Assembly (NCBI GenBank): GCA_021818905.1
Contig: JAKASS010000003.1
Span: 74,445-114,365, forward strand
DNA from: Nanobdellota archaeon
GTDB lineage: Archaea; Nanobdellota; Nanobdellia; Parvarchaeales; Parvarchaeaceae
Length of the DNA: 39,921 bases
Direction: 5' to 3'
The translations under genes and the position numbers were made by a program. Positions 22,218 through 35,979 of the stretch are shown in pieces. Each line of letters starts with the position of its first letter. The stretch's first letter is position 1. The notes under the pieces are model-generated. The model had not been told where the DNA came from. It saw nothing but the letters and a program-made list of their open reading frames with translations, and did not search any database.

Positions 22218-23624
22218 TTATATAGAACCGTAAACAGAAAATTCAATCGGATTTGGGTAGCTCCCTATTTTCTTTGCTTCCGCGCGTTTTAATCCTAGAT
22301 AGGTATCTATTACGCTGACAGGAAAAGCTTTACGCAAGAATTGATTATCGGATTCGAGTTCGTCCAATGCTGTGTTTAAGTCTCCAGGAAGCTCCTTTAC
22401 TCCGAGCTCATTTCTTTTCTGCTTACTAAGGTGATAAATATTCTCGTCTATCGGGTCTCCCGGTTCTCTTTTCTTTTCTATGCCGTCTAAAGCCGCTAAA
22501 AGTAAAGCTGAAAACGAGAGGTAAGGGTTTGCGAGCGGGTCCGGAGGCCGGTATTCTATTCTTTTTGTTGCTTCTTGGCCACGATGGTAAGTCGGTATCC
22601 TTATTGCCGCGCTTCTGTTTGATTTGCTCCAGGCAATGTATACGGGCGCCTCATAACCTGGGACAAGACGCTTGTAGCTGTTGGTCGATGGCGAAACTAT
22701 AGCTGATAGCGCTCTAGCGTGTTCCATTAGTCCTCCTACGGCATACCTTCCTAGCTGACTCAATTCAGAGTATTTGTCTCTGGCATCGTACATCAGGTTC
22801 TTTTCTTGGGATTCATTCCAAATACTAAAATTAGTGTGCATGCCGCTGCCGTTATCGCCAACGAAAGGTTTTGGCATAAATAACGCTAACATGTTATCTC
22901 CCTTTGCTATGTTCCTAGCAACGAATTTAAGCGTCTGGAATCTATCGGCGGCATCGAGCATTTCAGAATATCTATAGTTAATCTCTGCCTGCCCCGCGGT
23001 CGCAACTTCGTGATGCGTCGCTTCTATTTTGAAGTCAAAATTATTCTTTAGCGTGTTTACGATCTTTAGCCTGGTGCTGTAAGTTTTGTCTAGGGGAGTA
23101 ACCGGATAGTAACCGCCTTTGTATGGTATACTAGAAATGCTACCGGAAGCTGGGGCTTCTGATGATTTTATTTTGTACCCTATCCCCGAAGCCGGGTTGT
23201 CTATGTCAAGCTCCAAGCCATCAAAAAGGAAAAATTCGGATTCTGGTGCAAAGAAAGAAGAATAGCCCTTCCCAGATAAATATCCCTGTGCACGTTCAGC
23301 AACATTTCTTGGGTCTCGTTCAAATCTTTCGGAGCCTGCTTTATAATAAATTTTATTCAAAACCCTCGCTACGCCCTGCGCCCAAGGAAGCATCGTAAGG
23401 CTTTCGGGTATCGGCATTAGGACCATGTCGCTATCTTGAATGTCTGCAAATCCGACGATGCTGCTGCCGTCTAATTTGGCGAAGCCGGTCTTCATCGTTT
23501 TCTCATTAAGCTCGTCTGCTGGAACCAGAACCTGCCTAAGACTACCGAAAAAGTCTGTAAATTGCAATTCGAGCCAATCCACATTATTTTTAGTAAGAAA
23601 GGATTTCACGTTTTTAGAATCCAT
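22218..23624 (-). CDS. glnA: Glutamine synthetase, type I
   Basis: A 468-residue type I glutamine synthetase (ATP + glutamate + ammonia to glutamine). Visible landmarks are the N-terminal TDFFGSLRQVLVP, the active-site FAPESEFFLFD, the NTP region MHTNFSIWNE, SPSTNSYKRLVPGYEAPVYIAWS and RIPTYHRGQEATKRIEYRPPDPLANPY. The tail lacks the adenylylation tyrosine loop of bacterial GSI-beta. I use ATG 23624, not the GTG three codons earlier, because TTTATATA lies about 25 bp upstream of this ATG. Glutamine is the nitrogen donor for the GatCAB enzyme encoded nearby. Its last codons are duplicated inside the hybrid pseudogene at 31205. Confidence 0.96.
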   Translation of the reverse strand: MDSKNVKSFLTKNNVDWLELQFTDFFGSLRQVLVPADELNEKTMKTGFAKLDGSSIVGFADIQDSDMVLMPIPESLTMLPWAQGVARVLNKIYYKAGSERFERDPRNVAERAQGYLSGKGYSSFFAPESEFFLFDGLELDIDNPASGIGYKIKSSEAPASGSISSIPYKGGYYPVTPLDKTYSTRLKIVNTLKNNFDFKIEATHHEVATAGQAEINYRYSEMLDAADRFQTLKFVARNIAKGDNMLALFMPKPFVGDNGSGMHTNFSIWNESQEKNLMYDARDKYSELSQLGRYAVGGLMEHARALSAIVSPSTNSYKRLVPGYEAPVYIAWSKSNRSAAIRIPTYHRGQEATKRIEYRPPDPLANPYLSFSALLLAALDGIEKKREPGDPIDENIYHLSKQKRNELGVKELPGDLNTALDELESDNQFLRKAFPVSVIDTYLGLKRAEAKKIGSYPNPIEFSVYGSI

Positions 23625-23668
23625 TTTATACACGTGAAGACATCTTATATATAAAGAAATATTTTGAA

Positions 23669-27878: not shown

Positions 27879-29224
27879 ATGGCACCGATATTATATTTGA
27901 ATCTGTATTTGAATTTCCCTTCCCAATTTTCGACAAAAGATATGGGCGCATAGTCGTTGAAGTGGTCGCCAACTATCTGCGCGCCAATCGGCATGTCGTC
28001 AATATACTCATACGGAAAAGAAACGTGGGGGAAACCGCATAGATTCGGCGGGATAGTCAACATATCCAAAGCATAAGTTTGCACGGGCGAAAGCTTTTCT
28101 ACCTCGGATATTTTAGGCGTGGTTATCGACATAGTAGGAGATATTATGAGACTTTCCCTAAGAATCCTGCGCATCTTTTCGCCAAGCATCGCTCTTACCT
28201 TCAATGCCTTGACATAATACCTGTTCTTGACGCTTGCCCCCCTAACGAACGTCCCTAATATTATCCTTCTCTTGGCTTCCGAACCAAATTGCATCCTGGC
28301 TTCTGTAAAGAAATCGTTATATCTTTTTGAAAAGTCTCCCACCTTAAAACCATATTTGAAGCCAGTATACCTGGCAAGATTCGTCGAGGCCTCCGCGGTG
28401 GATATGATATAATAAGCCGGTATGGCCGCTTCTATGTCTTTCAAATCAACATAGTTTATCTTATAATCCATCGACTTGAGCTTTTCCAAAAGCTTATCAA
28501 ACGCGGACCTTACTTTGTCGTCCAGACCGTTCATAAGCTGGTTTATCACCGAAAACTGTATTTTTGGTTCGTCTCTCAACCTTGCATCAAGAGAAGTCGT
28601 GTCTTTTTCGTCCCTACCAACAGACATGTTTAATACTTTTCTTATATCTGCCGCCGATCTTGCCATAAAACCTATCTTGTCCAGAGAATTTGCATAATCT
28701 ATAAGACCATTCCTTGATACGACCCCATAGGTGGGTGTAAATCCGACGACGCCGCAGAACGCTGCGGGTGCGGATATAGAACCGCCCGTGGACTCTGCCA
28801 CCGCCACATGATATTTTAAGATAGAGGTCGCCACTGCCGCTCCGCTACTCGAGCCGCCCGCGACGTAATCGACATTAAAAGGATTTCTAGCCGGGGTCTC
28901 GCAATTTATGCCAAAACTCCCGAAGCCGAATTCGTCCATGTTTGTTTTGCCTAAAAATGCGAAGCCCTGTCTCTGCAATCTTTCCACAACTGTCGCGTTA
29001 AACGGTGGCTTGTAAGTCTTTAGTATTTTTGATGATGCTGTGCTTTCGACTCCCCTTACACAAATATTGTCCTTCACGCTGAAAGGAAAACCATCTCGCA
29101 AGTCTTCATTAAGATTGTTAAATACGTGTAACTCTCTATTTTTTCCTTTAAGCTCTTCTAAAAGTTTCTGGTAATAGTCCTTGGGTTTGTCTTTTGACTC
29201 AAATTCTGAAATATAACTTTTCAT
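27875..29224 (-). CDS. gatA: Asp/Glu-tRNA amidotransferase subunit A
   Basis: A 449-residue amidase-signature protein. The catalytic triad is visible: Lys in PFSVKDNICVRG (about residue 50), the Gly/Ser-rich loop AGGSSSGAAVATS (about 124-136), and nucleophile Ser in ESTGGSISAPAAF (about 146-158). It liberates ammonia from glutamine for use on GatB-bound tRNA. The N-terminus is rather short compared with bacterial GatA (about 480 residues). It overlaps gatC and gatB by four bases each, as expected for equal subunit amounts. Its first 50 codons are copied, fused to the end of glnA, at 31205-31447. Confidence 0.96.
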   Translation of the reverse strand: MKSYISEFESKDKPKDYYQKLLEELKGKNRELHVFNNLNEDLRDGFPFSVKDNICVRGVESTASSKILKTYKPPFNATVVERLQRQGFAFLGKTNMDEFGFGSFGINCETPARNPFNVDYVAGGSSSGAAVATSILKYHVAVAESTGGSISAPAAFCGVVGFTPTYGVVSRNGLIDYANSLDKIGFMARSAADIRKVLNMSVGRDEKDTTSLDARLRDEPKIQFSVINQLMNGLDDKVRSAFDKLLEKLKSMDYKINYVDLKDIEAAIPAYYIISTAEASTNLARYTGFKYGFKVGDFSKRYNDFFTEARMQFGSEAKRRIILGTFVRGASVKNRYYVKALKVRAMLGEKMRRILRESLIISPTMSITTPKISEVEKLSPVQTYALDMLTIPPNLCGFPHVSFPYEYIDDMPIGAQIVGDHFNDYAPISFVENWEGKFKYRFKYNIGAI

Positions 29225-29493
29225 ACTTCTGGTCCTACGACGTACAGGCGATGGGTCTTTGTGTTGTCCAAAAGCTCTTTCTTTTCCTTAAATTCCTTAG
29301 GAATGTCCTTTCTCATGATGCCTGGTATCTCTACTGGATGGTAAGCAGGTTCTACATTTCCGCATTCTACACCGTCGAGTTTATTAAAATAGTTTATAAC
29401 TTCCTCTAAGTCATTCTTTATTGTTTCTGATTCCGTTTCTGTAAGGCCGATCCTTGCGGTTTCTAGCAAAGATTTGAATTCCCGATCATCCAT
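29221..29493 (-). CDS. gatC: Asp/Glu-tRNA amidotransferase subunit C
   Basis: A 90-residue GatC, the small helper that links GatA and GatB. The family pattern is visible: LLETARIGLTETESETIKNDLEEVINYFNKLDG, then an acidic segment and the C-terminal MRKDIPKEFKEKKELLDN that wraps the partner subunits. It opens the gatCAB operon and overlaps gatA by four bases. A divergent second copy with 21 substitutions occurs at 31444-31716. Start at ATG 29493; an AT-rich TTATAAGGAT lies about 25 bp upstream on the coding strand. Confidence 0.93.
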   Translation of the reverse strand: MDDREFKSLLETARIGLTETESETIKNDLEEVINYFNKLDGVECGNVEPAYHPVEIPGIMRKDIPKEFKEKKELLDNTKTHRLYVVGPEV

Positions 29494-29571
29494 AAATTAG
29501 AAACTAGTTTTATCCTTATAACCATTAATCTGATTATTTGACGGTAGGTTTAGCCGTTTCAGAATTTAAAT

Positions 29572-29717
29572 GAAGAGAACGCTGAGAGGCCGAGGGCTGC
29601 TAAATAGTGCGGCCGTCTTTATCCCGACGTTTAAACGTCAAGGAGCCACTTCCACAATGGGATGAACCTTATCTTCTTGCCTTTTACCTTTTCCTCGGCT
29701 TCGTAGTCCCAGGTTAT
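29572..29717 (-). repeat. 146-bp repeat at the 3' end of ATPase genes 1 and 3
   Basis: The last codons of ATPase gene 1 (WDYEAEEKVKGKKIRF to WLLDV) and about 60 bp of its downstream flank match 33169-33314 at the end of ATPase gene 3. Both stretches are 146 bp. The downstream part can fold: in copy 3, GCCGG and CCGGC surround GATAAAA, and copy 1 can form a similar, weaker stem. It may be a shared 3'-end or terminator element, or just the limit of a gene duplication. Confidence 0.75.
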
Positions 29718-30947
29718 GACATGACCGATATCTAACTTATAAAAATCCATTGCGGCAAGGAGAGCGCTTTTTTCTCTCTCTTTTGTAGGGCTATCCGAAA
29801 CCGTGTATGCACATTGTATCAGTTTTTCTACTTTATTCCCGTCAGTCACGACAAAATCGACTTCTTTCCCGCTTAGATCTTTCCAAAATCCTACGGTAAT
29901 CGTAGCTTTTTCCTCCTTTCTTCTTAATAATTCTATATAAACTAAATTTTCTAATAGCCTGCCTTTTTGCATGTCGGAATTGAAAAGCGTCGCCATCCCG
30001 GTGTCGACAATGTATAATTTTTTGTGGGTCTGGGGCCTCTTTTTTATGCTTCTGGAGTAAGGGAATAATTGATAGAGTAAAAACACTTCCTGTGCGTATT
30101 TTATAAAGCTATTTATCGTCTTCTTACTTGCGTTCACGTCGATAGTCTTGAAAAAATTGTTTATTTTTGTGACGCTGAATTGCTGAGAAAAGCTCCCTAT
30201 CGAATAGCGGATAGTCTTGTCGAGGAGGTCTACGTCTCTTATCTTGAACCTCTTTATTATGTCTCTAAAAAATATCGCATTGTAGTATTCAGAGAGGATC
30301 TTTATCTTTTTATTTACGTCCTCCTCCTCGGATACTTCGGGGAACCCGCCGTACACTAGATATTCATCTAAAAGCCCGAGTATGGCCGCTAGTTTTTTCT
30401 GTGAATATATCGTCGTTTTATCGAGTGCGAAAGCTTTCGCTAGAATGAACTCCCGAAATGAAAAGGGGTAGACTATGTAAGTCAAGTTTCTGCCGCTAAG
30501 CGAGGTGGATATTTCCGCACTTAAGAACTTAGAACTTGAGCCCGTAACGAATATATTATATTTTCCGCTATCATACATCCGCCTTATCCACTTCTCCCAG
30601 CCGTCCACGTTTTGTATCTCGTCGACGAACAGCCATATCTTGTCTTTTTTGGCTCCATACAACTCATAATACGCGCCGGTCAAGTCTTCGAGGTCGCCTG
30701 CAGATATACTTCCAAGCCTCTCATCCTCAAAATTTATATAGATTATCGATTTTTTGTCTATGTTTTCATTTACGATTAGATCATTTATTGTCGAGAACAG
30801 CAGGTAGGTTTTACCAGAGCGTCTCACTCCCGTTACCACCACGATTTTCTTGCCGCTTACATCTAGTTTTAATTCCCTGCCGATCATTTCGGGTAGTTTT
30901 CTCTCCGACCATTCTACCAAAAGCTTCTTGAAGATTTCCTTTTTCAT
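29631..30947 (-). CDS. AAA ATPase 1 (AAA_14/DUF4143 family)
   Basis: A 438-residue protein. Walker A GVRRSGKT (40-47), Walker B WLFVDEIQNVDGW (about 111-123), sensor FVTGSSSKFLSAEISTSLSGR and the FSFREFI motif are typical of the archaeal/bacterial COG1373 family (AAA_14 plus C-terminal DUF4143). A winged-helix-like middle part is followed by a nuclease-like end with FWKDLSGKEVDFVV. Function in the family is unknown. I use ATG 30947, because an operator and TATA box lie immediately upstream and inside the longer ORF beginning at 31025. It shares its C-terminus and 3' flank with ATPase 3. Confidence 0.88.
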   Translation of the reverse strand: MKKEIFKKLLVEWSERKLPEMIGRELKLDVSGKKIVVVTGVRRSGKTYLLFSTINDLIVNENIDKKSIIYINFEDERLGSISAGDLEDLTGAYYELYGAKKDKIWLFVDEIQNVDGWEKWIRRMYDSGKYNIFVTGSSSKFLSAEISTSLSGRNLTYIVYPFSFREFILAKAFALDKTTIYSQKKLAAILGLLDEYLVYGGFPEVSEEEDVNKKIKILSEYYNAIFFRDIIKRFKIRDVDLLDKTIRYSIGSFSQQFSVTKINNFFKTIDVNASKKTINSFIKYAQEVFLLYQLFPYSRSIKKRPQTHKKLYIVDTGMATLFNSDMQKGRLLENLVYIELLRRKEEKATITVGFWKDLSGKEVDFVVTDGNKVEKLIQCAYTVSDSPTKEREKSALLAAMDFYKLDIGHVITWDYEAEEKVKGKKIRFIPLWKWLLDV

Positions 30948-30996
30948 GTTTTCTATAGGAAACGTAAATATATAAATCTTGTTTCTTATAAGAAAC
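30948..30996 (-). promoter_or_regulatory. ATPase 1 promoter: two palindromes 33 bp apart around a TATA box
   Basis: A perfect 16-bp palindrome, GTTTCTTATAAGAAAC (30981-30996), and an imperfect copy, GTTTTCTATAGGAAAC (30948-30963, one mismatch), have centres exactly 33 bp apart. Each is followed on the plus strand by GTAA. A TATA-like element (30965-30977) is centred between them, about 25 bp from the ATG at 30947. The proximal palindrome abuts the start codon, so bound protein would clamp both sides of the TATA box. Confidence 0.8.
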
Positions 30997-31204
30997 GTAA
31001 TTATGGCGATGATTTGACCGGTCAAGGCGACGTCGATCGGACATCTGTCGCTACACTGCTGTTATCGTCGCCTGGATGGTCGTAATGGCTTGGGTACCTT
31101 TAGAGCAAGCGGACCTGCCCATATGTCGTCATTTACTCCAAGGCTGACTGAAATCTGTTGATCGTGCTTTGAATCAAGTATCTGACGATGATAATAAGTT
31201 TAGT
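30997..31204. other. Spacer without identified gene
   Basis: About 200 bp between the ATPase 1 promoter and the hybrid pseudogene. Base composition is more GC-rich than the surrounding coding DNA. Short frames are open on both strands but none has a recognisable product or promoter. The last 15-20 bp before 31204 may still be remnant of the DNA downstream of glnA. It could be a decayed insertion; I see no terminal inverted repeats. Confidence 0.4.
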
Positions 31205-31447
31205 TTATATGGAACCGTAAACAGAAAATTCGATCGGATTGGGATAACTTCCTATTTTCTTTGCCTCTGCGCGTTTTAGTCCTAGATAGGTATCTATTAC
31301 GCTGAATGGAAAACCTTCGTGTAACTCTTCATTAAAATTGTTGAAAGCGTGGAGCTCTTTGTTCTTTTCCCTAAGTTCTTCTAAAAGCTTCTGATAATAA
31401 TCCTTTGGCTTCTATTTTGCCTCGAATTCGGATATTAGACTTTTCAT
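31205..31447 (-). pseudogene. In-frame gatA'-glnA' hybrid pseudogene with one internal TAG
   Basis: 81 codons on the minus strand. Codons 1-50 match gatA (MKSLISEFEAK, then KPKDYYQKLLEEL, FNNFNEELHEGFPFSV). Codons about 46-80 match the end of glnA (FPFSVIDTYLGLKRAEAKKIGSYPN to VYGSI and TAA). The frame is kept across the junction. The only disruption is a TAG at codon 12, where gatA has Asp. The junction lies where both parents share TTTTCCTnTCAGCGT. ATG overlaps the gatC' stop as in the true operon. It is best read as the product of a deletion of about 6.8 kb in a duplicated copy. Confidence 0.9.
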
Positions 31448-31716
31448 ACTTCCGGCCCGATGACATAGGAACGATGGGTCTTTGTGTTGTCTAAAAGTCT
31501 TTTCTTCTCTTTGAAATCTTCTGGCGTGTCTTCCCTCATCATGCCGGATATCTCCACGGAGTGATAGGCGGGTCCTACGTTCCCGCATTCGATATCGTCC
31601 AATCTGTTAAAATAGACTATGACCTCCTCTAGGTCTTTCTTTATCTCTTCTGATTCGGCTTCCGTAAGGCTTATCCTCGCGGTTTCCAGCAACGATTTAA
31701 ATTCTTTATCGTGCAT
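31444..31716 (-). CDS. Second GatC copy (gatC')
   Basis: 90 residues, uninterrupted, 69 of 90 identical to GatC at 29221. All helix and tail landmarks are retained: LLETARISLTEAESEEIKKDLEEV, the ECGNV segment and EKKRLLDNTKTHRSYV. Most changes are surface residues, such as G16S, T20A, T24E, N34V, E48G and E73R. It now lies 14 bp downstream of ATPase 2 and so may be transcribed with it, while its own gatA is a pseudogene. It could still compete for GatA/GatB, or be on the way to loss. No bound partner can be identified from sequence. Confidence 0.85.
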   Translation of the reverse strand: MHDKEFKSLLETARISLTEAESEEIKKDLEEVIVYFNRLDDIECGNVGPAYHSVEISGMMREDTPEDFKEKKRLLDNTKTHRSYVIGPEV

Positions 31717-31730
31717 AATTTATGCTCGAA

Positions 31731-32984
31731 TCATTTTAAATCCAGCAGCCACTTCCATAGGGGAATCAACTTTATCCTGCCGCAGTCTACCTTCTCTTCA
31801 AGTTCGTCTTTTTTTGTTATGATAACGCCTTCTTTTTTACCGAATCTTTTCATGAATTCTTCTACTGGCTTTAGATCGTTTTTATCGATTCGCTCCCGGT
31901 ATTTGACTTCTATCGGGACATCCTCGTAGACCATGTCTACCTCATTTGAATTTTTCCAGAAAGCCGAGGCTTTTGCCTTGTTTATCACTGCGGACTCTAC
32001 CATCCTGCCGAAGAACGTGTCGTCTATATTCTGTTTGTATAAGTAAGTTATCGCATTATCTGTAGGATATGCCCTTTTTCTTTTTCTTAACGTAGCTGCA
32101 TTACCTTTTCTGTAATTGCCAAGCATAGAAATCAAAAAGCTCTCCTGAAGATAGGAGATGTAATCTTTTATGACTCTTCTATCCTTTCCAAATTGCCTGC
32201 TTAGAGACTGATAATCCACGTACATGCCGGGGTTTGTAGCTATTAATTCGAGGAGGGTCTTGAGAAATCCTGGATCGTCTATTTTAGAAATCTTCGGGAT
32301 ATCGCGGTATATTATTCTGTCGATCACTAATGCCCCTATATATTCCCTGAACTCAGTGTCGTTTTTAAGAGAGAAGGTTTCCGGGAACCCCCCCATGCGC
32401 ACGAACTTCACGAGGAGTGGCCTAAGTACGGTTTCGTAAGGCGTCTTTTCTTTAATGTTATTGAATTTTAGGTATTCTTTAAACGAAAAAGTCCTTAAAA
32501 TAAACTGGAAAACCCTGCCGGCAAGGGTCTCTTTGGTCTTCTTTTTTATGAACAGCGATTCCGAACCACTTATAATGAATTTAAGTTTCGGATATAAGTC
32601 GTAGTATTTCTTGACCTCGTTTTCCCAATTTTCGCTTTTCTGGATCTCATCAAGGAATATATAAACGCGTCTGGCTCTTAGGTCCTTGCCGTGAATATCA
32701 TTATACGCATTTATTATGTCGCCGAGACCCCCCGAGGTTTCATCAAAGGAGAAAAAGAGCACGTCCGTCGGATCCGCCCTTTCACTGATAAGCTTTTGTA
32801 TCAGTTGATATATCACCGTGGTTTTGCCTGTCCTTCTTAGCCCTACGAGCGCGATGATAAATCTGTCCGCCATGTGCTCTAAGACGTCATAATAGCAATC
32901 TCTTTTGAACGACAGTGCTAGATCGGGATCGACTTTCCCGCTCAGCCACCAATGATTGAATTCTTCGATTACGGCTCTTTCCAT
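31731..32984 (-). CDS. AAA ATPase 2 (AAA_14/DUF4143 family)
   Basis: A 417-residue protein. Walker A GLRRTGKT (48-55), Walker B VYIFLDEIQKSENW (about 111-124), FIISGSESLFIKKKTKETLAGR and FSFKEYLKF match the same family as ATPase 1 and 3 but are more distant. The winged-helix part contains DYQSLSRQFGKDRRVIKDYISYL. The nuclease-like part has FWKNSNEVDMVYEDVPIEVKYR, close to a PD-(D/E)xK pattern with E-x-K. I use ATG 32984, since palindromes and TATA box lie just upstream and inside the longer reading from 33098. gatC' follows by 14 bp. Confidence 0.88.
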   Translation of the reverse strand: MERAVIEEFNHWWLSGKVDPDLALSFKRDCYYDVLEHMADRFIIALVGLRRTGKTTVIYQLIQKLISERADPTDVLFFSFDETSGGLGDIINAYNDIHGKDLRARRVYIFLDEIQKSENWENEVKKYYDLYPKLKFIISGSESLFIKKKTKETLAGRVFQFILRTFSFKEYLKFNNIKEKTPYETVLRPLLVKFVRMGGFPETFSLKNDTEFREYIGALVIDRIIYRDIPKISKIDDPGFLKTLLELIATNPGMYVDYQSLSRQFGKDRRVIKDYISYLQESFLISMLGNYRKGNAATLRKRKRAYPTDNAITYLYKQNIDDTFFGRMVESAVINKAKASAFWKNSNEVDMVYEDVPIEVKYRERIDKNDLKPVEEFMKRFGKKEGVIITKKDELEEKVDCGRIKLIPLWKWLLDLK

Positions 32985-33035
32985 ATGTACATCAGGATGT
33001 ATATGTTTATATATATTACGTACATCGCGATGTAC
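32985..33035 (-). promoter_or_regulatory. ATPase 2 promoter: two palindromes 33 bp apart around a TATA box
   Basis: Perfect palindrome GTACATCGCGATGTAC (33020-33035) and a related TACATCAGGATGTA (32988-33001; mismatched only at the two-base centre), extended with one mismatch to 32985-33004. Centres are at 33027.5 and 32994.5, exactly 33 bp apart. The TATA-like stretch (33006-33018) lies midway, about 28 bp from ATG 32984. The layout equals that of ATPase 1 but with different sequence. Confidence 0.8.
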
Positions 33036-33227
33036 ATGAAAAAGTGGGAAATTTTCCCGCTTTTCTAAATTATTGGTGCCGAAAGAAGCTTTTATCACTT
33101 TGCGTACTAAGTTAACTTTCTTTCTGGGAGAATATCTTTATCGCGATAAAGAAAAATGCCAAAGATATGAAGAGGACGCCGAGAGTCCGAGGACGACTAG
33201 ACAGTGCGGCCGGTTTTATCCCGGCGT

Positions 33228-34508
33228 TTAAACGTCAAGGAGCCACTTCCACAAGGGAACGAACCTTATCTTCTTTCCCTTGACCTTTTCCTCGGCTTCG
33301 TAGTCCCAGGTTATCACGAGAAGGTTGTCGCAACGTAACTCTTTAGAGGCCCCAATAAGATTGTTTATTTCTCTATCGTTTATGTACCGTCTATCCGACG
33401 CATATGTAACTTGGATCAACTCTGTGATTTTACTCCCGTTCTTTAACGCGAAATCGACTTCTCTTTGTTGGTGGTCTTTCCAATAGAATATGCCATATGC
33501 ATTTATGCCGATTTTTGATGTTCTTCTGGATAATTCTACCGCAACTGCATTTTCCATAAGGATGCCCTTCCTCTCACTAAGGGTCGGGCTCATGTAAACT
33601 GAGAGCCCCGTGTCTATGGAATAGATTTTTTTAGGGGCGAACACCGCTTCCTTTAATTTAAAAGAAAACCTTGTTAGCTTCAAAAATAGGTACGCTTCTT
33701 CTAGATATCCGACCCATTTGGATATAGTTATCTTGTGTTTGACCCCAGTCAATTTTATTAGGGAGGAATAACTAAATTCCTTTGAGATGTTGGCCATCAA
33801 AAACGCGGCTACCGCTTTCAAATCCTCTTCATTTTTTACCTTATGGCGCTTTATTACATCCTTCGTTATTATGTCATTGTAAATCGATTTTAAAAAATCT
33901 TTTCCAAATTTTAGGACTTCTGGAAATCCGCCTTCATTTAGATATGTATGCAATGCCACACCTACTCTGGCCCGCTCTGCGGTAGTCAATGCGCCGAGAT
34001 ATTTGGTCCCCATGTATCCCAGATACTCTCTGAAACTAAACGGAAAAAGGATGAAATCTAGATGCCTGCCAGTCAAAGACGTAGCTAATTCTCCGCTCAA
34101 AAGTGCGGAGTTGGAACCGGTCACAATCACTTTTTTTGTGTCTCTCAGCCTACTAACGAATTTTTCCCAACCGTATACCTCCTGTATTTCATCGAGTACT
34201 ATATTTTCTATATCGTCACCATAAAGTTCATAAAATGCCTGCAAAACTTTGTTTAAATCAGAAGTTTCGAGTTTTATCAATCTATCATCATCGAAATTTA
34301 TGTATCCGGATTTTTTGCCTCTAAAAAGTTCCTCAGAGAGTGTTGATTTTCCGCATCTACGTATACCGAGTATGATGATCGCGTTTGGATGAGAAAGATA
34401 TTTTTCTATTTTTATATCCTCTCTATTTATTATCTTTTCTTTCTTAAACTTCTCTTCAAGCTGTGCTCTTTGATCGATTATTACCTGCTTTAGTTGCTCA
34501 ATGTCCAT
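33228..34508 (-). CDS. AAA ATPase 3 (AAA_14/DUF4143 family)
   Basis: A 426-residue protein. Walker A GIRRCGKS (48-55), Walker B NIVLDEIQEVYGW (about 108-120), VIVTGSNSALLSGELATSLTGR and FSFREYLGY follow the family order. The winged-helix part contains FSYSSLIKLTGVKHKITISKWVGYL, and the C-terminus FYWKDHQQREVDFAL ends in the same WDYEAEEKVKGKKIRF block as ATPase 1. The shared block and 3' flank indicate a common origin. It is divergent from a small basic ORF (34598) with a palindromic region between. Function is unknown in the family. Confidence 0.88.
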   Translation of the reverse strand: MDIEQLKQVIIDQRAQLEEKFKKEKIINREDIKIEKYLSHPNAIIILGIRRCGKSTLSEELFRGKKSGYINFDDDRLIKLETSDLNKVLQAFYELYGDDIENIVLDEIQEVYGWEKFVSRLRDTKKVIVTGSNSALLSGELATSLTGRHLDFILFPFSFREYLGYMGTKYLGALTTAERARVGVALHTYLNEGGFPEVLKFGKDFLKSIYNDIITKDVIKRHKVKNEEDLKAVAAFLMANISKEFSYSSLIKLTGVKHKITISKWVGYLEEAYLFLKLTRFSFKLKEAVFAPKKIYSIDTGLSVYMSPTLSERKGILMENAVAVELSRRTSKIGINAYGIFYWKDHQQREVDFALKNGSKITELIQVTYASDRRYINDREINNLIGASKELRCDNLLVITWDYEAEEKVKGKKIRFVPLWKWLLDV

Positions 34509-34528
34509 CCTAAATGATCTATTTTCGC

Positions 34529-34588
34529 ATATAAAAAGCTTTCTATTAAGAATAGAAAGCTTTTATAAAAAGCTTTCTATTAAGAATT
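34529..34588. promoter_or_regulatory. ATPase 3 divergent promoter with large palindrome and 34-bp repeat
   Basis: Positions 34534-34564 form a perfect inverted repeat with 14-bp arms (aaaagctttctatt / aatagaaagctttt) and a 3-bp spacer (aag). A second copy of the left arm plus spacer begins 34 bp further on (34568-34588). A TATA-like TTTTATAAAA (34561-34570) is centred between the two repeat centres, as in the other two ATPase promoters. It faces the small ORF at 34598; a second box, TTTTTATATG on the minus strand (34529-34538), would give a leaderless ATPase 3 transcript. Confidence 0.75.
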
Positions 34589-34597
34589 ACAGTGTAT

Positions 34598-34759
34598 ATG
34601 TTAAAGAAGAATCTGGATCAAATGCCAGACGCCCATACAAAAAAGTTAAAAAAGAGAGCTGCACTGGGAACAGCAAATAGAACAATGAAGCGCCAAAAGC
34701 ATACTGAAAGAAATTTTTTATCCAGTATAGCGGGTACAAATAATAAAAACCGTCAGTAA
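34598..34759 (+). CDS. Small basic protein, 53 aa, unknown
   Basis: An ATG-TAA frame of 54 codons: MLKKNLDQMPDAHTKKLKKR, then AALGTANRTMKRQKHTERNF and a polar tail ending KNRQ. Basic residues are far more frequent than acidic ones (strong positive charge), which fits nucleic-acid binding. A TATA-like TTTTATAAAA is centred about 32 bp upstream, and the repeat region that would control it is shared with ATPase 3. No family is recognised. It is plausible as an antitoxin- or regulator-like partner, but it may be chance in AT-rich DNA. Past it, 34760-34887 shows nothing. Confidence 0.45.
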   Translation: MLKKNLDQMPDAHTKKLKKRAALGTANRTMKRQKHTERNFLSSIAGTNNKNRQ

Positions 34760-34887
34760 ATTTAGCGCATGTTTTCTTGGGTTTATAATTGAGGCCGCTA
34801 TAATGACGATAGCGACAGTAAATTTAAAGCTTACAAGCAAAGCTGACCTTAGTGCCGAAAGAGGCATTTACTTTAGGACATACCAAG

Positions 34888-35979
34888 TCAGCTTTCTTTC
34901 CAGGAAAACACTCTCATAGAAATAAAGAAGAACGCCAAAGAGATCGCAGCGACTATGCCCGTATTAAACAGCAAGCCAGGCACATTCCCGAACAGCATTA
35001 TCGCGTTCATACCGTTTATTACATAGTAAAGTGGCAGGAATTTTGCGATTTCCTGCAGATACATCGGCATCGATGACACCGGGAAAAACGTGCCGGCCAA
35101 AAACATCATCGGGAAGGTTATCACGTTGCCTATTATCGCGGCGGTCTCTTCATTCTTTGAGATAGAGCCGGCGACTATTCCGAGCGAAATGAACCCAAAG
35201 ACTCCAAAGAAAACAATTGGCAATATGTATAGATTGAACGTTATCCCGGCACCGAATACGAGATCCCCCACGCTTATCATCAGGACGATCGCTACCACCG
35301 CCATTATCGCATTCCACGTGAATTTTGAGACCATCCACTCGCCTTTAGTCAAGGGAGTTAGTGAAAGCTGTCTGAATATTTTTTCTTTCTTGTAGGAACT
35401 TACTATGTTTGTCATAGAAAACACGCCTGCAGTCAGCACGGAAAAACCTATCAAGCCGGGTATAAGGTAATTTATGTAGCCGACTGCGGTCGTAGAGACC
35501 GGGCTTACATAAGCGTGTATGATCGGTGTGGCATTGGCGATTTTAAAATTAAAACTTTGTATCACCAAGTTGACTGCCTGTTCTGCTGTCTGGGCGCTAG
35601 ACTGGCTCGGATTATAATAAAAAGAGATGTTCACATTTTGACTAGAAGCTACTTCCTGTGCAAAGTCCGCTGGTATGACCAGCGCTGCATCTATAGAATT
35701 CTGGTTTATGTAAGTCTGTATGTTGGCGTTTGACGGGACGGCGGTTATAGTCACTAGACCTGTACTGTTAAGCGCCGAAACAAAGCTCAAAGATATGGCT
35801 GAACCATTATTTAGATTCTGTACGGACAGCGGCACTTTAGTGCTCCCCCCGGAGAATATTGCGCCAAAGACCAGCAGAAATATTATCGGAAACAGAAGGG
35901 TAAAGAACAAAGCGGAGCGTGTCCTAAGAAAGTTTCTGGCGTACACTACAAAATCTGCTTTTATGTTCGCTAGCCTCAT
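34888..35979 (-). CDS. ABC-2 type exporter permease (system 2)
   Basis: A 363-residue permease. One N-terminal helix (SALFFTLLFPIIFLLVFGAI, about 22-41) is followed by a long extracytoplasmic domain of about 125 residues, then five helices from residue 170 on with INYLIPGLIGFSVLTAGVFS and the ABC-2 pattern KKEKIFRQLSLTPLTKGEW. The C-terminal LAGTFFPVSSMPMYLQEIAKFLPLYYVINGM is the typical end. The extracellular domain makes it like YhgE/drug-export ABC-2 permeases; the substrate is unknown. It begins one base after the ATPase gene stop, so they form one exporter. Confidence 0.92.
   Translation of the reverse strand: MRLANIKADFVVYARNFLRTRSALFFTLLFPIIFLLVFGAIFSGGSTKVPLSVQNLNNGSAISLSFVSALNSTGLVTITAVPSNANIQTYINQNSIDAALVIPADFAQEVASSQNVNISFYYNPSQSSAQTAEQAVNLVIQSFNFKIANATPIIHAYVSPVSTTAVGYINYLIPGLIGFSVLTAGVFSMTNIVSSYKKEKIFRQLSLTPLTKGEWMVSKFTWNAIMAVVAIVLMISVGDLVFGAGITFNLYILPIVFFGVFGFISLGIVAGSISKNEETAAIIGNVITFPMMFLAGTFFPVSSMPMYLQEIAKFLPLYYVINGMNAIMLFGNVPGLLFNTGIVAAISLAFFFISMRVFSWKES

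Follow-up and report, generated by a model that had tools for sequence, protein, structure and literature searches.

Paired palindromic dyads before archaeal AAA_14/DUF4143 (PDC-S01) ATPase genes are conserved with the gene and are likely private autoregulatory operators

The stretch of DNA analysed here (the window; 39,921 nucleotides, positions 74,445 to 114,365 of contig JAKASS010000003.1, assembly GCA_021818905.1) comes from a DPANN archaeon of the Nanobdellota, whose genome of 0.94 Mb contains 13 DUF4143 genes, several of them in tandem. Three of these genes, referred to as ATPases 1, 2 and 3, are considered in detail (Table 1). Pfam profiles AAA_14 and DUF4143 match all three products above the curated cut-offs, and profile comparison assigns them to the PADLOC family PDC-S01 (E-values down to 2.6e-112). 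The Walker A (GxRRxGKS/T) and Walker B (DEIQ) motifs are present, with G48, R50, G53, K54, D106 and E107 invariant in 26 of 26 sequences. Relatives with a name are metagenome assemblies of Nanoarchaeota/Parvarchaeota; in the nearest, a homologue of ATPase 3 is 80% identical. PDC-S01 is reported to be a candidate defence system with validation pending, the fourth commonest in prokaryotes (9986 archaeal and 29,494 bacterial members in one survey, about 40,000 in all), listed as a single-gene system that combines an ATPase with a PD-(D/E)XK-like domain in one fusion protein and is abundant in archaea (PMC12988326). Within the open-licence literature nobody has shown the function of PDC-S01; the accessible part of that literature, where absence is not proof, contains no account of the regulation or operators of DUF4143/AAA_14/COG1373 (PDC-S01) genes, and the open-licence literature yielded nothing relevant on paired palindromes at archaeal TATA boxes.

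Table 1. Coordinates, in the window, of the three ATPase genes, their dyads and the repeated 3' ends
Feature	Position	Strand	Remarks
ATPase 1, AAA_14 + winged helix/DUF4143 (PDC-S01)	29631..30947	-	Pfam AAA_14 4.9e-38, DUF4143 2e-26; PADLOC PDC-S01 2.6e-112
ATPase 1 proximal dyad GTTTTCTATAGGAAAC	30948-30963	.	14/16 self-complementary; abuts start codon at 30947
ATPase 1 distal dyad GTTTCTTATAAGAAAC	30981-30996	.	16/16 self-complementary; 33 bp from proximal dyad (centres)
ATPase 2, AAA_14 + DUF4143	31731..32984	-	Pfam and PADLOC profiles; start codon 32984
ATPase 2 proximal dyad GTACATCAGGATGTAT	32987-33002	.	12/16 self-complementary
ATPase 2 distal dyad GTACATCGCGATGTAC	33020-33035	.	16/16 self-complementary; 33 bp from proximal dyad (centres)
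ATPase 3, AAA_14 + DUF4143	33228..34508	-	Pfam and PADLOC profiles; start codon 34508
ATPase 3 complete dyad, 31 bp	34534-34564	.	28/31 self-complementary; 25 bp from start codon
ATPase 3 second copy, half-degenerate	34568-34598	.	first 20 bases as in first copy; right arm lost; 12/31; 34 bp from first
ATPase 1 3' constant end	29570..29720	-	last ~90 bp of gene and ~60 bp past stop; 88% identical to 33167-33317
ATPase 3 3' constant end, same element	33167..33317	-	88% identical to 29570-29720

The original observation, that each of the three genes is preceded by a pair of palindromes whose centres lie 33, 33 and 34 bp apart, was confirmed at the stated places, and none of 1000 dinucleotide-preserving shuffles of each of the three promoters produced an equally good pair. 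The proximal dyads of ATPases 1 and 2 extend to the start codon or almost to it, and a TATA-like sequence (ATTTATATA and TATATATAAA, respectively) lies between the two dyads. The accompanying claim that a TATA box occupies the middle of the pair in every case holds for these two genes but fails for ATPase 3 and roughly one in two family members, where the likely box is downstream of both dyads. The ATPase 3 box at the usual leaderless distance is TTTTTATAT, centred ~25 nt before the ATG, on the downstream side of both dyads and close to them; between its dyads there is another TATA-like run.

Paired palindromes had also been expected before homologous genes, and they are indeed present there. 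Dyad pairs in 59 upstream regions, mostly from the same genus, exceed those of 127 control genes (p = 1.8e-17), and in a phylum-wide set of 118 genes 48% reach a pair score of at least 16.5, compared with 3.9% of shuffles, with spacings of 32-34 bp and a second class at exactly 23 bp. Among 231 AAA_14/DUF4143 promoters drawn from this archaeon and its phylum, a strong pair (score at least 18) was detected in 46%, as against 2.8% of 286 control genes taken from the same loci and contigs (p = 6e-58); with this detector, more than half of the family promoters are devoid of a strong pair. At a score of at least 19.5 the corresponding fractions are 29% and 1%, and 97% of the pairs at this level are spaced by 23, 32, 33 or 34 bp. 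With start codons assigned by rule, the proximal dyad ends at one of two preferred positions, either near the start codon, with the TATA between the dyads, or ~31 bp before the ATG, with both dyads upstream of the TATA. In a set of 37 bacterial and other homologues, taken from viral contigs and plasmids, the pair signal is weaker but present: a score of at least 16.5 is reached by 32%, compared with 7% of shuffles, and of 12 such pairs 8 are spaced by 39-40 bp around the -35/-10 region, as exemplified by ATCGATTTAAAACGAT...ATCGATTACAATTGAT at L315. The view that operator sequences differ while the geometry remains constant therefore needs qualification: the operators are private and the spacing is fixed inside classes, but 33 bp is not universal (23 and 32-34 bp; 39-40 bp in bacteria). 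A homologue from Lachnospiraceae (L071) is preceded by three direct repeats TTGCGTACTAT, exactly 34 bp apart.

The operators differ among the 13 paralogues of the one genome. For the ATPase 2 motif no further site was found within 2 mismatches anywhere in the genome, the dyad core of ATPase 3 has a single occurrence and none elsewhere, and the ATPase 1 motif (up to 1 mismatch) recurs only in a remnant at position 40556 of contig C22 and in one weak site on contig 6. As the operators differ between paralogues and the motifs of ATPases 1-3 are absent, or nearly so, from the rest of the genome, each operator belongs to its gene and not to a regulon. For ATPases 2 and 3, whose motifs have no further genomic sites, the idea that each operator governs a genome-wide regulon was discarded; for ATPase 1, with only the remnant and the weak site besides its own pair, it is unlikely. 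The remnant (G000:C22:40556-40571, upstream of L009) consists of GTTTCCTACAAGAAAC followed by a decayed gene start, located between tandem ATPase genes, showing that a copy with an ATPase 1-like operator has been lost.

A homologue 85% identical to ATPase 1 (L034) has the same operator pair. When homologues with 55-85% protein identity and the same spacing are compared, the dyad arms are 81% identical, while the distant flank and the central base are only 29% and 32% identical, respectively. The fraction of gene pairs with similar operators rises with protein identity from 0.7% (below 30%) through 1.5% (30-40%), 7.5% (40-50%) and 26% (50-60%) to 87% (60-80%), although the compared genes are kin and the pair counts are consequently not independent. 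The dyad pairs exist, they are specific to the gene they precede, they are under selection and they are inherited with the gene across genera. That they could be chance palindromes of AT-rich promoter DNA, where weak dyads are frequent according to both the shuffle and the control rates, has a negligible probability and is refuted by the shuffles of the three promoters, by the strong enrichment over control genes and by the conservation of the dyads across genera.

We consider it likely that the dyad pairs are private autoregulatory operators, i.e. that each ATPase binds its own pair and regulates its own gene. The AlphaFold2 model of ATPase 3 (pLDDT 89.9) contains, with high confidence, a winged helix at about residues 227-278 with the recognition helix at 259-271, and over many genera signatures of this helix are associated with particular half-sites and spacings: SVQ(S/T)VIDY with TTTCTATT (23 bp), GSxN(S/T)V with TGTKCATT (23 bp), N(A/S)ITVKEY with TACTAATT (33 bp), SATTIKEY with TTTGGTTTG (33 bp), GS(S/T)TT with TTTCCATT (32-33 bp), SY(D/E)xIKDY with TGTTAC (33 bp) and (T/S)TDSxGEY with TCGATTA (32 bp). 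In partial Mantel tests over all genes the strongest signal fell near residues 5-20 and 106-118, where it is put by the deep subfamily structure; within one subfamily the region 225-300 gave the highest mean, with other windows competing. As regards the proposed covariation between operator and winged helix, operators covary with the whole protein (from 0.7% to 87%) and the helix signatures match half-sites, so that the winged helix is consistent with the data but not singled out by them: in nearest-neighbour prediction of the operator the helix equals the AAA domain and does no better. Taken together, the sequence comparisons are suggestive of a link between operator specificity and the winged helix. 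The failure of the covariation analysis to single out this domain, and the large number of small regulators in archaeal genomes, would also be compatible with a separate transcription factor, encoded elsewhere, as the protein that recognises each dyad pair and governs expression of the ATPase gene. We regard this as unlikely: the operators follow the sequence of the ATPase and are not alike among the paralogues within a genome, so that any such factor would have to be inherited together with every copy. Moreover, the neighbouring genes vary among the loci with inspected annotation, and PDC-S01 is listed as a single-gene system (PMC12988326).

Alternatively, the ATPase might bind the dyads mainly for a purpose other than transcription, such as marking of self DNA, cleavage or recombination, partition, or formation of a platform for sensing infection. 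The C-terminal part of the protein is PD-(D/E)XK-like, many homologues are located on plasmids, and the duplicated flanks and constant 3' end of the genes (see below) are signs of recombination. A search by sequence returned no convincing solved relative. Structure comparison yielded only remote AAA+ matches, the best Foldseek E-value being that of Orc1/Cdc6 bound to origin DNA (2qby), however with a TM-score of only 0.27; Orc1/Cdc6 proteins likewise combine an ATPase with a winged helix, but they are devoid of the DUF4143/PD-(D/E)XK part and their sites are at origins. With the reservation of its low TM-score, this match speaks for autoregulation by the ATPase as well as for the alternative. 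The catalytic motif D..(D/E)xK is not found in ATPases 1 and 3, which read QCA and QVT, respectively, in place of ExK (QxT within LIQVTYAS in ATPase 3), while ATPase 2 retains ExK (EVK within IEVKYRE). As LIQVTYAS or a similar sequence stands in place of ExK in the subgroup with the constant C-terminus, to which ATPases 1 and 3 belong, its nuclease activity has probably been lost. The loss of the ExK motif in ATPases 1 and 3, together with the promoter location of the pairs, whose second dyad prefers to end either near 0 or near -31 with respect to the ATG, makes a primarily non-transcriptional role improbable.

Returning to autoregulation, we infer, as the most economical solution, that it is the ATPase itself that binds; it is likewise conjectural whether it binds as a dimer of dimers, in which direction it regulates and what, if anything, triggers it. 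The encoded ATPase would bind its own pair through the winged helix, with one dimer per dyad, so that two dimers would be held at a set distance (23 or 32-34 bp; 39-40 bp in bacteria). Dimers bound before ATPases 1 and 2 would cover both the TATA box and the start site, leading to repression. Where the pair lies upstream of the likely box, as it does in ATPase 3 and roughly half of the family members, entry of TFB/TBP could be blocked (again repression), or the outcome could even be activation; sites upstream of the TATA are also bound by activators. The AAA domain could set operator occupancy according to its ATP state or to a virus-derived trigger, and the ATP state or a signal of infection would then relieve self-repression. 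Each paralogue would possess its own insulated feedback loop, which would allow many copies to coexist in one genome (13 here). Whether the whole family can be generalised as one-protein regulatory units, each made of an ATPase switch, its own DNA-reading domain and a private operator pair with one of few spacings, with a helix-to-half-site code readable from the sequence and with insulated, orthogonal copies transferred together with their operators, appears to us evenly balanced.

Control of defence-linked genes by a self-made factor that acts on dyad operators at the promoter is known for C proteins of Type II restriction-modification systems and for toxin-antitoxin systems. The resemblance to the ATPase genes lies in the dyad operators at the promoters of defence-linked genes; however, C proteins and antitoxins are separate small proteins, whereas here the DNA-binding part would reside within the ATPase and each paralogue has an operator of its own. 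RptR, the stand-alone repressor of a phage-defence island, forms another parallel, as it binds repeated palindromic sites at its own promoter upstream of the defence locus, but it is a helical protein that recognises 6-bp palindromes, without an ATPase and without pairs spaced by 23 or 33 bp (PMC12255303). Autoregulation of defence genes via palindromic sites is therefore already known (PMC12255303 for RptR); what differs here is that the regulator seems to be the ATPase itself and that very many paralogues each possess a separate operator. The operator pairs of ATPases 1-3 have no counterpart in the accessible part of the published description of PDC-S01 (COG1373-type AAA_14-DUF4143 ATPases), of which they are members by profile.

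Many plasmid-borne homologues were found, and among the loci L216, L323 and L221 one lies between hsdR and a methyltransferase gene in a restriction-modification locus, one is flanked by two Eco57I-type methylase genes and one is positioned between cas3 and cas4 in a CRISPR locus, which is in keeping with a role in defence. The private, conserved operators provide a first handle on PDC-S01, predicting which DNA each ATPase binds, and they suggest a tight self-limitation of these proteins, as is often seen in toxin-like or sensor-like factors. They also make reporter and binding tests immediate, and a readable helix-to-half-site code, if true, could with its many natural variants supply orthogonal regulators for archaea and bacteria.

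The ATPase genes are surrounded by duplications. The 3' end (~90 bp of coding sequence) is nearly constant in 9 of the 13 paralogues (including L208-L210 and L212), while the gene bodies are widely different; the element shared by ATPases 1 and 3 is 87-91% identical in 7 other paralogues on four other contigs, and in several of them the match extends ~60 bp beyond the stop codon. For the last 96 nt the identity is 0.87 within the genome versus 0.55 to other genomes, a pattern suggestive of gene conversion or of recombination anchored at the 3' end. ATPase 1 is flanked on either side by gatC plus the start of gatA (29076-29499 and 31299-31722; the two copies are 76% identical), and the upstream gatC copy is intact (90 aa). 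The 3' tail region of an ABC-2 permease gene is present on both sides of ATPase 3 (33073-33168 and 34849-34944; 72% identity), as if ATPase 3 had been inserted at the tail of that gene. Finally, a segment of 113 bp upstream of ATPase 1 (31205-31317) is 89% identical to positions 22218-22330, which correspond to the 3' end of a gene for a 471-aa protein (22218-23633).
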